From assembly GCA_030840885.1 (NCBI GenBank), contig JAVEDQ010000213.1:1-14702 (forward strand): DNA of 14,702 nucleotides, given 5' to 3'. The translations under genes and the position numbers were made by a program. The notes under the pieces were generated by a model. That model made no database searches. It was not told where the DNA came from and saw only the letters and a program-made list of their open reading frames with translations. Shown here piece by piece: positions 1 to 4,969 of the stretch. How positions within the stretch are numbered: the stretch's first letter is position 1; each line of letters begins with the position of its first letter. This DNA is from Frankiaceae bacterium (GTDB taxonomy: Bacteria; Actinomycetota; Actinomycetes; Frankiales; Frankiaceae).

Positions 1-102
1 CCGGCGACGTCGAAGCGGGAGCGGGCCGCGGAGAACGCCGCCGCGGGCGACGCCGTCTTCGATGACGACCAGCGCGCGCGGGTGGCCGCGCTCGCCAAGT
101 GA
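1..102 (+). CDS. C-terminal fragment of a probable aldo/keto reductase
   Basis: Frame 1 is open from the window edge to a TGA at 100-102, giving 33 residues. The fragment begins PATSKRERAAENAAAGDAVF and continues with an acidic DDDQRARVAALAK tail. The run 'PATS...R..EN..AGD....D...R..V..L' resembles the extreme C-terminus of NADPH-dependent aldo/keto reductases, where the Ser/Arg/Glu-Asn residues lie in the cofactor-binding end of the barrel. The call rests on this short resemblance only; the catalytic tetrad is outside the window. It converges on the M1 peptidase-like gene with a 22-nt gap. Confidence 0.5.
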   Translation, partial: PATSKRERAAENAAAGDAVFDDDQRARVAALAK

Positions 103-1865: not shown

Positions 1866-3608
1866 TCAGCAGGAGTCGGCGATTCGGACGGTCATCGGTC
1901 GGGCGAGCGGCTGCACCGGCACCGTCAGGTGCGCTGATGTCCTCGGCTCGTCGTATTCGAGAACCATGGTCTTGGTGGAGCCGGGGTTGATCTCGACGTC
2001 AAAGGTGAAGTCCGGGTGAGTTCGCTCCTGGCCCACCTGGACCGTGGCCGCCTTCCCGTCGACGGAGGCTCCCGTCAGAACCGCGCCGCTCGAGGCGTAG
2101 TAGTTCACGAAGGTGCGGGTCTGCCCGCTCGGTCGTGAGGGCCGGTCGACCCGAAAGCCGACGTAGGCCGGCAGACCCGATGAGGGAGCGTTGTTCTTCA
2201 TGGCGATGGTGGCCCGGACGCGCCGCGTGCGGTCGCCGCATGACAGGACCTGGTAGGTCAGCGTGCGGTCGACGTAGTAGTCACCCTTGCCGGTGCCGCC
2301 GTTGTTGAGGACGAGAGCGGCGATCGGCCCCGGAGTGTCGAGGACGGTGCCGGCGATCGGCGTCCCGAGGATCGAGGCCTGCTCCTCCGGACGCGCGGCC
2401 CAGAACAGGATGCGGTGCTCCCCGGCCGCGCGGCCCATCGCCTTCAAGAGGGCCGCGCTACTGCCGTTGCCGTCTTTGATCCGGTCGAACGCCTTTTCGC
2501 CGAGTTCCGTGAGGAGATCTTTCCGGCGTTCGTTGTCATCGGCGTATTTGAAGTACTCGGTGGACAACGCCCAGGTCGCGACGTTGTCTCCCGTGAGCAC
2601 CTCACCGTCGCTGAGGGTGACAGGCCCGGTGACCTTCAGCAGGTAGCCGAGGGCCAGCGGGTCGAGGGTGATGACACCGTCGATGCGCTCGCCGCTCTGC
2701 CGTTCCCACAGCTTCTGCCAGATCTCCGCAGCCCACGGGTAGTGCGGGGTGAAGTTCGCGTTGCGCCACCCGCGGTCGCCGTCCGCCTTACGCCACTGGG
2801 CGTCGAAGTCGGGGCCGAGGTCCACCACGGGGCGGGGTGCGTCGATCAGCTCGCTGTCGCTCCCGGTGCGCTCGCGGCTGAGCTTGCCGTTGTCGGCCCT
2901 CACCACGGCGAACGAGCCGGCGAGCCCCCCGGTGCCCCGCGCCTCAGCTGGGTTCTGGAAAATCACCAGATAGCGGCGCGGGCCGTTCTCGCCGAGCATG
3001 GCGGGACCCACCCGGGCTGCCCGGGTTGCGGCGTCCAGGCTGCCCGCGAGGTCGGTGAGCTGGGTGGCGAACTGCTCGCGAGCGGTCGCCACCGGCGCGA
3101 CCAGGCCCGTCGACGGCAGGGCAGCGACGGTGGTCCGGGCATCGGCGAGTGCGCTGTCGGCGGCGGCCAGCGGGGGCGCGGCTGCTGTCAGTCGCGCGAG
3201 CTCGACCGTGCCGTCCTTCCGGCGGACCTGCGCCGGGCTGAGTTGGTTGCCGGCGTCGACGAGTGGCGGAAGTGCGTGCGAGGCCAACTGGTCGGTCGCC
3301 TTGGCGAGCCCGCTGCTGGCGGCGAAGGTGTGACCGAGGACGGGCACGTGGGACGCCAGCCACCAGATCGGGTCGCTCGTCCACCGCCGCGCGGAGGCCG
3401 CGTCGGCCTGGATCGAGGCCAGACCTGGTGTCAGCCGATCGGTGTTGCCTGCGGAGACGTCCTTCTGCAGGCGCGTGACCTCGCTGCGGACGTCGACGAG
3501 GTGGCTGCGGGCGAGAAAGGCAGTGAGCCCGAGCCACCCGAGTACCAGGAAGAACACAACGACGGCGACCCCCGCAGGAAGCAGGGGTCGCCGTCGTTGT
3601 GTGCTCAC
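1866..3608 (-). CDS. DUF4012 family membrane-anchored protein
   Basis: A 580-aa protein with a basic N-terminus (TQRRRP), one transmembrane helix at about 13-33 and a large extracytoplasmic part. The segment at 206-237 (GENGPRRYLVIFQNPAEARG, then TGGLAGSFAVV) is the hallmark of DUF4012, and 308-332 (IDGVITLDPLALGYLLKVTG) is a second conserved block. Residues 40-200 are Ala-rich and probably helical. The family has no established biochemical function; members occur in cell-surface and exopolysaccharide contexts. The protein ends in a lone Cys (RIADSC). The start is GTG at 3608; the frame closes at a stop at 3630-3632 with no other start between, so a start keeping the basic N-terminus and full helix must be this one. 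No Shine-Dalgarno is visible at normal spacing, and strong hairpins flank and overlap the start. It lies 46 nt downstream of the LPFTG gene, probably in one operon with it. Confidence 0.87.
   Translation of the reverse strand: MSTQRRRPLLPAGVAVVVFFLVLGWLGLTAFLARSHLVDVRSEVTRLQKDVSAGNTDRLTPGLASIQADAASARRWTSDPIWWLASHVPVLGHTFAASSGLAKATDQLASHALPPLVDAGNQLSPAQVRRKDGTVELARLTAAAPPLAAADSALADARTTVAALPSTGLVAPVATAREQFATQLTDLAGSLDAATRAARVGPAMLGENGPRRYLVIFQNPAEARGTGGLAGSFAVVRADNGKLSRERTGSDSELIDAPRPVVDLGPDFDAQWRKADGDRGWRNANFTPHYPWAAEIWQKLWERQSGERIDGVITLDPLALGYLLKVTGPVTLSDGEVLTGDNVATWALSTEYFKYADDNERRKDLLTELGEKAFDRIKDGNGSSAALLKAMGRAAGEHRILFWAARPEEQASILGTPIAGTVLDTPGPIAALVLNNGGTGKGDYYVDRTLTYQVLSCGDRTRRVRATIAMKNNAPSSGLPAYVGFRVDRPSRPSGQTRTFVNYYASSGAVLTGASVDGKAATVQVGQERTHPDFTFDVEINPGSTKTMVLEYDEPRTSAHLTVPVQPLARPMTVRIADSC
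3554..3602 (-). repeat. Perfect 19-bp inverted repeat (11-nt loop) in the first codons of the DUF4012 gene
   Basis: The left arm acacaacgacggcgacccc (3554-3572) is the exact reverse complement of 3584-3602, with an 11-nt loop at 3573-3583. In the leftward mRNA the hairpin begins 6 nt after the first base of the GTG start and covers codons 3-19. Both arms are coding: one gives TQRRRP, the other GVAVVV at the beginning of the membrane helix. No U-tract follows, so it is not a classical intrinsic terminator. Confidence 0.95.
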
Positions 3609-3612
3609 GTGA

Positions 3613-3638
3613 TCAGGATGCCGTATCCGTCATCCTGA
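3613..3638 (-). repeat. 8-bp inverted repeat just upstream of the DUF4012 start
   Basis: TCAGGATG (3613-3620) and CATCCTGA (3631-3638) are perfect inverted repeats around a 10-nt spacer in the 46-nt gap between the LPFTG and DUF4012 genes. In the leftward mRNA the hairpin ends 4 nt before the GTG start, where a ribosome-binding site would normally be. It could be an attenuator, an mRNA-end stabiliser for the upstream gene, or a protein operator. No U-run follows it. Confidence 0.7.
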
Positions 3639-3654
3639 CGGTGGGACGGTCCGC

Positions 3655-4041
3655 TCAGGCGAGGGCCGAGCCGCCGGCGCGCTTGCGCGAGGCGACGACG
3701 ACAACGCTGCCGGCACCGATGGCGCCGATGCCGAGCGCGAGGGCCGTCGCGAGCTCGAAGCCCGTGAACGGCAGGCTGCCGGAGCTGCCGGAGCCAGAGG
3801 AGGTGGCCCCGCCGCCGCTCTCGACCGCACCGCCACTGGTCGTGGTCGTGCTGGTCGTGGTACCGGTGGTGCCGGCGCCGCCACCCGAGGTGTTGCCGGG
3901 CGTAGTGGCTCCGCCACTGTTGCTCACGCCACCGTAAGCGGCGCCGCCACCGTTATCACTTGCGAAGGCCGTTCCACCAGCCAGGACGCTGACTGCGACA
4001 GCGCCGCCAGCAACAACTCCGCGGATCATCCGTCGGTTCAT
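3655..4041 (-). CDS. Small secreted LPFTG (LPXTG-type) cell-wall-anchored protein, Gly/Ser/Thr-rich
   Basis: A 128-aa sortase substrate. The signal peptide runs MNRRMIRGVVAGGAVAVSVL, then AGGTAFA with probable cleavage after Ala27. A low-complexity Gly/Ser/Thr stalk with no folded domain follows (about 28-89). The sorting signal is LPFTG at 90-94, then a hydrophobic helix (about 97-116) and a basic RKR tail (119-121). The ATG at 4041 is preferred over the in-frame ATG at 4068 because a G-rich Shine-Dalgarno (GGGGGGTGG) precedes it and the signal peptide then starts normally. It is the first gene of the leftward operon and is divergent from the class E sortase, its likely anchoring enzyme. The role is unknown; a spacer or decorating surface protein is plausible. 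Confidence 0.82.
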   Translation of the reverse strand: MNRRMIRGVVAGGAVAVSVLAGGTAFASDNGGGAAYGGVSNSGGATTPGNTSGGGAGTTGTTTSTTTTSGGAVESGGGATSSGSGSSGSLPFTGFELATALALGIGAIGAGSVVVVASRKRAGGSALA

Positions 4042-4252
4042 CTCGCCACCCCCCAAAGGTATGTACACACAGTAACGCAGACCTGGGGGAATCGCGCCAC
4101 CCTGATCGGCAAATTCACCCGGCCGGCTGAGCGCCCGATCGGGTGACAGGTGACCAGCTCATGTCCAGAACTGCACTGCGCGCATTCGCGGTGATCTCTT
4201 GTCGCGGTGACGCGGTGGTCGCCAACCGTCGCACCGACCCGATAATGGACCC
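4042..4252. promoter_or_regulatory. Divergent intergenic region between the LPFTG gene and the sortase gene
   Basis: This 211-nt spacer must hold promoters for both directions. Visible elements are a perfect 10-bp palindrome CCCGATCGGG at 4134-4143, GGTGA(C/T) motifs on the plus strand at 4142, 4149, 4190 and 4206, and a near-palindrome GTATGTACACAC at 4059-4070 just upstream of the LPFTG ribosome-binding site. On the minus strand TACTGT (4074-4069) could be a -10 box for the LPFTG gene. No convincing -35 boxes were found, so the individual sites are tentative. Confidence 0.45.
4241..4246 (+). promoter_or_regulatory. Candidate -10 box for a leaderless sortase transcript
   Basis: GATAAT matches TATAAT at 5 of 6 positions and ends 6 nt before the ATG at 4253. 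That puts the expected transcription start at or next to the start codon. No Shine-Dalgarno precedes the ATG, which fits leaderless expression, common in actinomycetes. No clear -35 is seen. Confidence 0.5.
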
Positions 4253-4969
4253 ATGACCGTGCGCACCGAGGCCCCCGCTGCGGCGGCCCCGTCCCCTCGT
4301 GGGCGGAGCGCCGGCGACGTGGTCCGACTGCTCGTGCAGATCGTCGGCGAACTGATGATCACCTTCGGCATCGTCGTGCTGCTGTTCGCGGTCTACGAGC
4401 TGAAGGTGACCGACCTGCGCGCCGCCTCGACGCAGCGTGGGCTGCAGAACCAGCTGGACAAGGCGTGGTCAGGTGCCGGGCCGGTGCGCCCGAACGGTCC
4501 GGACCCGGTGGTGACGCCGGTGGAGGGCCAGCCGATCGCGGTCGTGCACATCCCGAAGCTCGGCGCCGACTACTCCCGCGTCGTCGTCGAGGGAGTGACG
4601 CACGAGGACCTGAAGAAGGGCCCCGGGCACTACCCGAAGACCGCGCTGCCCGGCCAGGTCGGCAACCTCGTGGTCTCCGGGCACCGGACCACCTACGGCG
4701 CGCCGTTCAGCAACATCGACCAGCTCCGGCCGGGTGACGTCGTCGACGTCCAGGTCCGGTTCCGCACCTACCACTACCGCATCACCGGTACCCGGATCGT
4801 CTCGCCGGACGCCGCCGAGGTGCTGTTGCCGGTGCCGGCGCAGCCCGGCGTCACGCCGACGCAGCGTCTGCTGACGCTGACCACGTGCAACCCCCGCTTC
4901 TCGGCGGCGCAGCGGATGATCGTCTCCGGCGTCCTGCAGCCCGGCGACTACACCGACAGCTCCAGCTGA
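4253..4969 (+). CDS. Class E sortase
   Basis: A 238-aa membrane-anchored transpeptidase that cleaves sorting signals and links the surface protein to the cell wall. A cytoplasmic N-terminus is followed by a transmembrane helix at about 23-50 and an extracellular sortase domain (about 90-230). Catalytic residues are visible: His144 in VVSGHRTTYGAPF, Cys212 in LTLTTCNPRF and Arg221 in SAAQR. The TLTTCNPRF/SAAQR signature and length fit actinobacterial class E enzymes. Many class E enzymes prefer LAXTG signals, whereas the neighbouring candidate substrate has LPFTG. The gene is divergent from that substrate and has no Shine-Dalgarno but a -10-like hexamer 6 nt upstream. Confidence 0.92.
   Translation: MTVRTEAPAAAAPSPRGRSAGDVVRLLVQIVGELMITFGIVVLLFAVYELKVTDLRAASTQRGLQNQLDKAWSGAGPVRPNGPDPVVTPVEGQPIAVVHIPKLGADYSRVVVEGVTHEDLKKGPGHYPKTALPGQVGNLVVSGHRTTYGAPFSNIDQLRPGDVVDVQVRFRTYHYRITGTRIVSPDAAEVLLPVPAQPGVTPTQRLLTLTTCNPRFSAAQRMIVSGVLQPGDYTDSSS

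Follow-up and report, generated by a model that had tools for sequence, protein, structure and literature searches.

Can the end of one gene's message be encoded within the first codons of the gene that follows? The question is raised by a 14,702-nt stretch of DNA from a Frankiaceae bacterium (contig JAVEDQ010000213.1, assembly GCA_030840885.1; the window, by which we mean this whole stretch), in which the first codons of a gene for a DUF4012 protein (1866..3608, minus strand) contain a perfect 19-bp inverted repeat (3554..3602, minus strand). Upstream of it and co-directional lies a gene (3655..4068, minus strand) whose product is a small secreted protein bearing the sorting signal LPFTG, one of the surface proteins with a sortase signal that we refer to as cell-wall-anchored (CWA). 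We consider it probable that the repeat gives an operon-internal stem-loop which functions as the 3' end of the CWA message, is encoded in the first DUF4012 codons, and keeps CWA expression above that of DUF4012.

A perfect stem-loop in the first DUF4012 codons

The two arms, ACACAACGACGGCGACCCC (3554-3572) and GGGGTCGCCGTCGTTGTGT (3584-3602), are exact reverse complements separated by an 11-nt loop, as an earlier note on this DNA had claimed. In the sense RNA, read from the minus strand, the 5' arm spans 3602-3584, the loop 3583-3573 and the 3' arm 3572-3554; the 19 perfect pairs can grow into a stem of 22 pairs with one G.U, the loop then shrinking to 5 nt. The stem starts 6 nt into the GTG-started DUF4012 open reading frame and 52 nt past the stop of the LPFTG gene. 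The same note had expected a very stable mRNA hairpin, in agreement with the computed fold of the 131-nt region, which has an energy of -79.2 kcal/mol and a z of -7.9 and was equalled by none of 200 shuffles.

The note's further claim, that such a repeat does not arise by chance, was confirmed from several sides. The source genome is a draft assembly of 629 contigs, 63% complete. We surveyed 81 of these contigs, which together with the window total 417,405 bases, for perfect stems having a loop of 3-30 nt; the window's own, at 19 bp, is the longest. Three dinucleotide shuffles of a 210,669-base subset contained no stem above 12 bp, and 3,000 synonymous versions of the first 25 DUF4012 codons, made with own codon usage and the protein kept, had a maximum of 13 bp. 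A chance origin was thus rejected by the shuffles, the stem survey of the 81 contigs and the fold statistics. Each arm has one exact match in the genome besides its partner's place, and allowing 3 mismatches adds 5 more, against 4 for a control pattern; with counts so close to the control, the window stem is no repeated element, and this candidate was rejected, the arms being unique in the genome. Rfam covariance models gave 6 matches at E ≤1, every one under its gathering cut-off.

The stem appears to be coding. The DUF4012 gene specifies 580 amino acids (PF13196), and with a GTG start at 3608 its N-terminal basic tail and the beginning of its membrane helix are encoded by both hairpin arms. 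In a 12-sequence alignment, 5 of the 11 homologue segments have the RRR of the basic tail in the same column, and most of the remaining segments begin further on; a membrane helix follows this column with gaps of at most 2 residues. There is no alternative start between the upstream in-frame stop and 3608, and sequence comparison supports GTG 3608 as the DUF4012 start. Against it, a codon-usage gene caller favours 3557, a start after the stem; it does so because the arm codons are atypical, those of the 5' arm (ACA, CAA, CGA, CGG, CGA and CCC) being rare enough to rank with the lowest 1.7% among 287 genes; those of the 3' arm are ordinary. A GTG start at 3557, with the hairpin outside the coding sequence, is disfavoured, as it leaves a 16-residue helix lacking the basic flank seen in homologues.

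We compared the stem with others of its size. Perfect stems of 13 bp or more number 7 in the 417 kb surveyed. Only the window stem overlaps a gene start; the rest are all intergenic, and 5 of these 6 follow a called gene stop by no more than 120 nt. Stems of this length number 23 in 400 kb from four relatives, where 20 are placed outside called genes, and those listed measure 13-23 bp. The window stem therefore seems to resemble the usual terminators of its own genome, its oddity being the overlap with coding sequence. A terminator scan scored it as a match, and the 8 nt that follow it in the sense RNA, UCUUCCUG (3546..3553, minus strand), include 4 U, which reaches the U count of the U-rich terminator class described for S. 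clavuligerus, set at 3 or more U in 8 (PMC8269248).

Recurrence behind genes for cell-wall-anchored proteins

The earlier note had proposed aligning the starts of orthologous DUF4012 genes. Around the window itself this found nothing to compare: the matches listed are at most 42% identical, one protein scan was empty, and no second genome of the organism's genus was found. A first pass over homologue starts gave no stem above 10 bp apart from the window's, and the resulting impression of a species-private hairpin was reversed once 80 named loci (the best 80 of 237) were added. Fifteen loci were skipped, 6 as duplicates and 9 with an alignment starting too far in or too little upstream DNA. Among 135 distinct DUF4012 start regions, window included, 10 have stems of at least 13 bp, compared with 0 of 1620 body windows from the same genes; at a threshold of 11 bp the counts are 14 of 135 and 12 of 1620. 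A DUF4012 gene is present in 33 of 295 Streptomyces genomes, and in a second sample, of 30 Streptomyces loci, 6 of the 30 starts have stems of 11 bp or more against 0 of 360 body windows, L285 again with 19 bp (L and G numbers are our labels for loci and genomes). Three of these six positives (L260, L266 and L281) are records already in the first set.

The stems concentrate behind CWA genes. For this comparison we removed start regions more than 85% identical in register, which left 138 of 165 loci; the filter dropped one positive (L268, its relative L186 being kept), one negative (L263, its relative L215 being kept) and repeats of positives. Not counting the window, a CWA gene stands directly upstream in 36 of these loci, and 12 of them have a stem of at least 11 bp; of the 101 loci lacking such a gene, 4 do (p = 1.9e-5). 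Two same-record pairs, L206/L269 and L197/L286, remain in the set, all negative; without their second copies the counts are 12/35 and 4/100. The median fold z is -2.2 for 37 CWA loci, -0.5 for 101 non-CWA loci and 0.0 for 276 body windows. As a control, we took 159 ordinary pairs of co-directional neighbours in which a near start is possible; 3 of them carry stems (p = 9e-8 versus 12/36). Streptomyces gene pairs have stems in 1 of 57 cases when called at most 60 nt apart and in 24 of 116 when further apart; tightly packed CWA-DUF4012 pairs bear stems at least as often as such well-separated neighbours. In a synonymous-recoding test on 122 of the 138 loci, the stem beats the recodings at p ≤0.01 in 11 of 34 CWA loci (window included) versus 4 of 88 others. 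The upstream protein in most stem-positive loci bears an LAXTG-like signal, and stem sequences differ between loci.

The place of the stem was measured from both genes. The distances from the CWA stop to the beginning of the stem are 27, 28, 29, 30, 32, 52 (the window), 53, 55, 63, 64, 64, 75 and 117 nt, so that 12 of the 13 loci, the window among them, fall within 27-75 nt; the minimum of 27 nt would leave space for a terminating ribosome. From the DUF4012 start, for which we took the one closest to the CWA stop, the distance is 6-79 nt, with 6 in the window and 13-79 in relatives.

Further evidence comes from 18 Streptomyces loci in which the CWA stop overlaps an in-frame DUF4012 ATG (TCATGA). 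We aligned 16 of them (alignment A2), leaving out two near-copies. They share a 13-bp hairpin, about 32 nt inside the coding sequence, and 92.3% of its cells are paired. Two-sided changes that keep the pairing affect 5 pairs and 12 cells; of 500 shuffles, none reaches 12 cells and 10 reach 5 pairs. Covariation is 0.233 versus 0.140 in shuffles, none of 500 reaching the observed value, and slid versions of the hairpin score far lower. The alignment of orthologue starts thus did reveal compensatory pairing, in Streptomyces. The internal gaps of A2 are multiples of 3, as coding sequence predicts. A possible start also lies after the hairpin in some TCATGA loci (L221, L272 and L282); conservation of the leader peptide speaks for the ATG that overlaps the CWA stop.

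Additionally, the hairpin leader was found ahead of a gene unrelated to DUF4012. A covariance model of the A2 hairpin (R1) had matches at E 0.01 in 32 of the 150 Streptomyces genomes searched; the best 6 matches were examined. Four exceed 70 bits, and three of these are DUF4012 starts. The fourth, in G532 (L310, minus strand from 1574), follows a CWA gene, and the frame that begins with the shared leader, MTEADLRTAEPRRPGPGRDAV, goes on to encode a glutamine cyclotransferase. A match in G495 (L313, 41 bits) also follows a CWA gene and has no long downstream frame within its 1.5-kb stretch; the sixth (L314, 37 bits) has neither a DUF4012 nor a CWA gene among the frames listed. In G532 and G495 the element therefore accompanies the CWA gene, not DUF4012.

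Some details of these loci are recorded here as side observations. The upstream CWA protein of G532 carries AQPYPP after its signal helix, so that a mature N-terminal Gln is possible. At L313 1440-1700 (G495), an imperfect copy of the hairpin follows the CWA gene together with what by eye appears to be a remnant of a cyclotransferase C-terminus. Near 1484 of L312 (G487), the TCATGA at the CWA stop is doubled within 20 nt, and the leader frame begins at the second copy.

Function and origin of the stem

How could such a stem act? A polymerase leaving the CWA gene would make the stem-loop about 50 nt past the CWA stop, and some transcripts would end there, either through partial intrinsic termination or with 3'-5' decay stopped at the stem. 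If the two genes are co-transcribed, the outcome would be an abundant, stable CWA message and less of the full-length CWA-DUF4012 message, presumably with a matching protein ratio. Ribosomes initiating on DUF4012 would open the stem, to the benefit of the long message. In the window, a GTG-bound ribosome and the closed stem would be mutually exclusive, and the window stem would do the job that we propose for those of Streptomyces. Leader attenuators likewise use a terminator-like stem whose formation depends on translation; unlike in these, no antiterminator stem or leader peptide stands out in the 131-nt fold of the window, for which no dedicated search was made.

In its place the element combines features of known systems. 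It stands shortly after a gene stop, as terminators do, at 52 nt in the window; it also lies inside the coding sequence of the next gene, 6 nt in for the window and 13-79 nt in for relatives, as do the barriers of differential operon decay in E. coli, where PMC5927463 reports protective RNA structures inside downstream coding sequences, a binding protein versus a channel being one case. In contrast to what that paper reports, the host here is an actinobacterium, the pair is CWA/DUF4012, the helices are perfect and unrelated in sequence between lineages, and the case is known from sequence alone. In Clostridia, internal terminators follow genes for substrate-binding proteins (PMC9045158), and the likeness is close: a stem-loop right after the gene for an extracellular protein and before that for a membrane protein, which there sets their ratio. 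In that study, however, terminators were sought in intergenic regions above 50 bp and an example with a 24-bp gap showed no drop, whereas here the stem lies in the next coding sequence. In Streptomyces, transcript 3' ends or predicted terminators carry long, GC-rich stems that often have few U behind them (PMC8269248; PMC1779546); the available parts of these two reports do not describe them as lying within the first codons of the following gene. Among the results listed by a literature search, judged by titles and abstract openings, there was no published account of the CWA-hairpin-DUF4012 arrangement.

Several observations weigh against the proposed function. Across 17 loci, at least 3 U follow the stem on the sense side in 5 and on the antisense side in 1, but this bias is insignificant (sense above antisense in 7 loci, the reverse in 3, p = 0.34) and so leaves canonical termination unproven. 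In A2, further pair types number 11, not above the 11.7 of shuffles. No stem of at least 11 bp is found in 24 of the 36 CWA loci, window excluded. All 9 loci with LPXTG motifs besides the window are stemless (L004, L006, L015, L057, L078, L212, L227, L229 and L252), and the 12 CWA-positive loci have LAXTG-like motifs, unlike the window's LPFTG. Four positives lack a recognised CWA gene (L193, L198, L199 and L215); at L198 and L199 the upstream gene ends in a helix and arginines with no clear sorting motif. The gene calls and the CWA motif pattern are our own, and the pattern, which we tuned, lets in one degenerate motif, the LADRG on which the L236 positive rests; with L236 reassigned, the counts become 11/35 versus 5/102. 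Since the loci are related and mostly Streptomyces, the p values overstate independence. Lastly, the structure is kept among the 16 Streptomyces loci, whereas the window stem is without homologue among the loci compared and is assigned to the recurring type by where it lies and what surrounds it; and the window's 46-nt gap between CWA stop and DUF4012 start (3609..3654, minus strand), with a second small hairpin (minus strand, arms 3613-3620 and 3631-3638, 8 bp, loop 10), differs from the ATGA overlap of Streptomyces.

Could the stem instead be a translational brake on DUF4012 alone, acting over the ribosome-binding and early coding region? The window taken by itself invites this view: the stem lies 6 nt into the frame, no Shine-Dalgarno is visible by eye ahead of the GTG, and the -20..+60 region is the most stable among 282 sampled gene starts. 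Yet the -4..+38 region is ordinary, with 222 of the 282 starts equally stable or more so, the stems of relatives at 13-79 nt would mostly not block initiation, the distance to the CWA stop is 27-75 nt in 12 of 13 loci, and the hairpin leader also precedes the unrelated glutamine cyclotransferase gene. We hold a brake of this kind to be unlikely. The earlier note's suggestion of a switch keeping DUF4012 below the LPFTG gene accordingly stands as to the link with the upstream CWA gene, which the stem counts, the 27-75 nt spacing and the compensatory changes uphold, but not as to control at the DUF4012 start codon, from which the distance ranges over 6-79 nt. Two further explanations can be set aside with greater assurance. 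The draft state of the assembly and the lack of a second genome of the genus might suggest an assembly or amplification artefact, which is very unlikely, however, given that the frame is open with matching homologues across both arms and that comparable stems stand at the same place in named isolates and further genomes. A by-product of composition, arising where Val/Ala codons come after Arg codons in a genome of high GC content, is scarcely credible: the peptide does permit longish stems, 265 of the 3,000 recodings reaching at least 8 bp, but none exceeded 13 bp, and in a separate test 0 of 200 reached the window's 19 bp. The recodings led us to reject it.

The remaining rival concerns the origin of the stem. 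A template switch may have copied one arm from the other and left a neutral scar, tolerated since the antisense of Val/Ala codons can read Arg, which suits a basic tail before a helix. Template switching is reported both to make and to repair stems (PMC8794818) and, in yeast, to alter coding sequence between inverted repeats (PMC8604942). The rare codons of the window's 5' arm, beside the ordinary ones of the 3' arm, are what such copying could leave, and a signature of it is seen in relatives: L263 and L215 have gene bodies 90.6% identical, L215 has a 15-bp perfect stem and L263 none, and copying of the opposite arm predicts 4 of their 4 differences in the 3' arm. In the 5' arm, however, it predicts 2 of 4, and the direction of change is not polarised; the pattern fits a template switch, while selection for pairing could produce the same one. 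Moreover, origin by copying leaves unexplained both the concentration of stems after CWA genes and the compensatory changes. We thus regard a mere scar as improbable, although a switch as the source of the stem keeps the support of the L263/L215 pair and of the 5'-arm codons. The note had offered template switch and regulatory switch as alternatives; this opposition did not survive, as the one speaks to origin and the other to function. As a side observation, a second close pair bears on stem origin: L268, with an 11-bp perfect stem, and L186, with 8 bp, have start regions 89% identical.

To return to the stem-loop as an operon-internal CWA 3' end, this reading, if true, means that actinobacteria can embed the 3' end of one message in the coding start of the next gene, and that one DNA stretch is under protein and RNA selection at once. 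It would also provide a first regulatory handle on DUF4012, whose function Pfam gives as unknown, and tie the family to sortase-anchored surface proteins. A bolder extension, which we consider doubtful, is a portable dosage module of CWA 3' end plus hairpin leader, in which the next membrane or secreted gene varies (DUF4012, glutamine cyclotransferase), template switching repeatedly renews the stem, which thereby changes in sequence but stays where it is, and read-through depends on whether the leader is translated. With stems that keep their place while changing their sequence, the rise and persistence of perfect hairpins become testable in Streptomyces pairs such as L263/L215.

Neighbouring genes and further stems

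Divergent from the CWA gene lies a gene for a class E sortase (4253..4969, plus strand), recognised by NF033747 with 232 bits (cut-off 160) and by PF04203; its top PDB relatives are sortases, including SrtE1 (5cuw). The CWA product itself has no match in Pfam or NCBIfam, and its real start may be an ATG near 4041 rather than 4068. The small hairpin of the gap is of a size frequent in this genome, which has 192 perfect 8-bp stems in 210 kb.

Other DUF4012 loci show stems or gene orders of their own. At L233 and L250 (Mycobacterium sp., -13..15), a 10-bp stem stands above its recodings (p = 0.015 and 0.005), with no recognised CWA gene upstream. Perfect stems are also seen further upstream of DUF4012, one of 18 bp at L017 in the window's family (-121..-83 from aligned residue 1) and one of 16 bp at L242 in Mycobacterium sp. 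(-170..-135). In the window's family, moreover, the order is swapped at L013, L016-L019, L021, L024, L026, L028-L030 and L069, where the LPFTG gene lies downstream of DUF4012.
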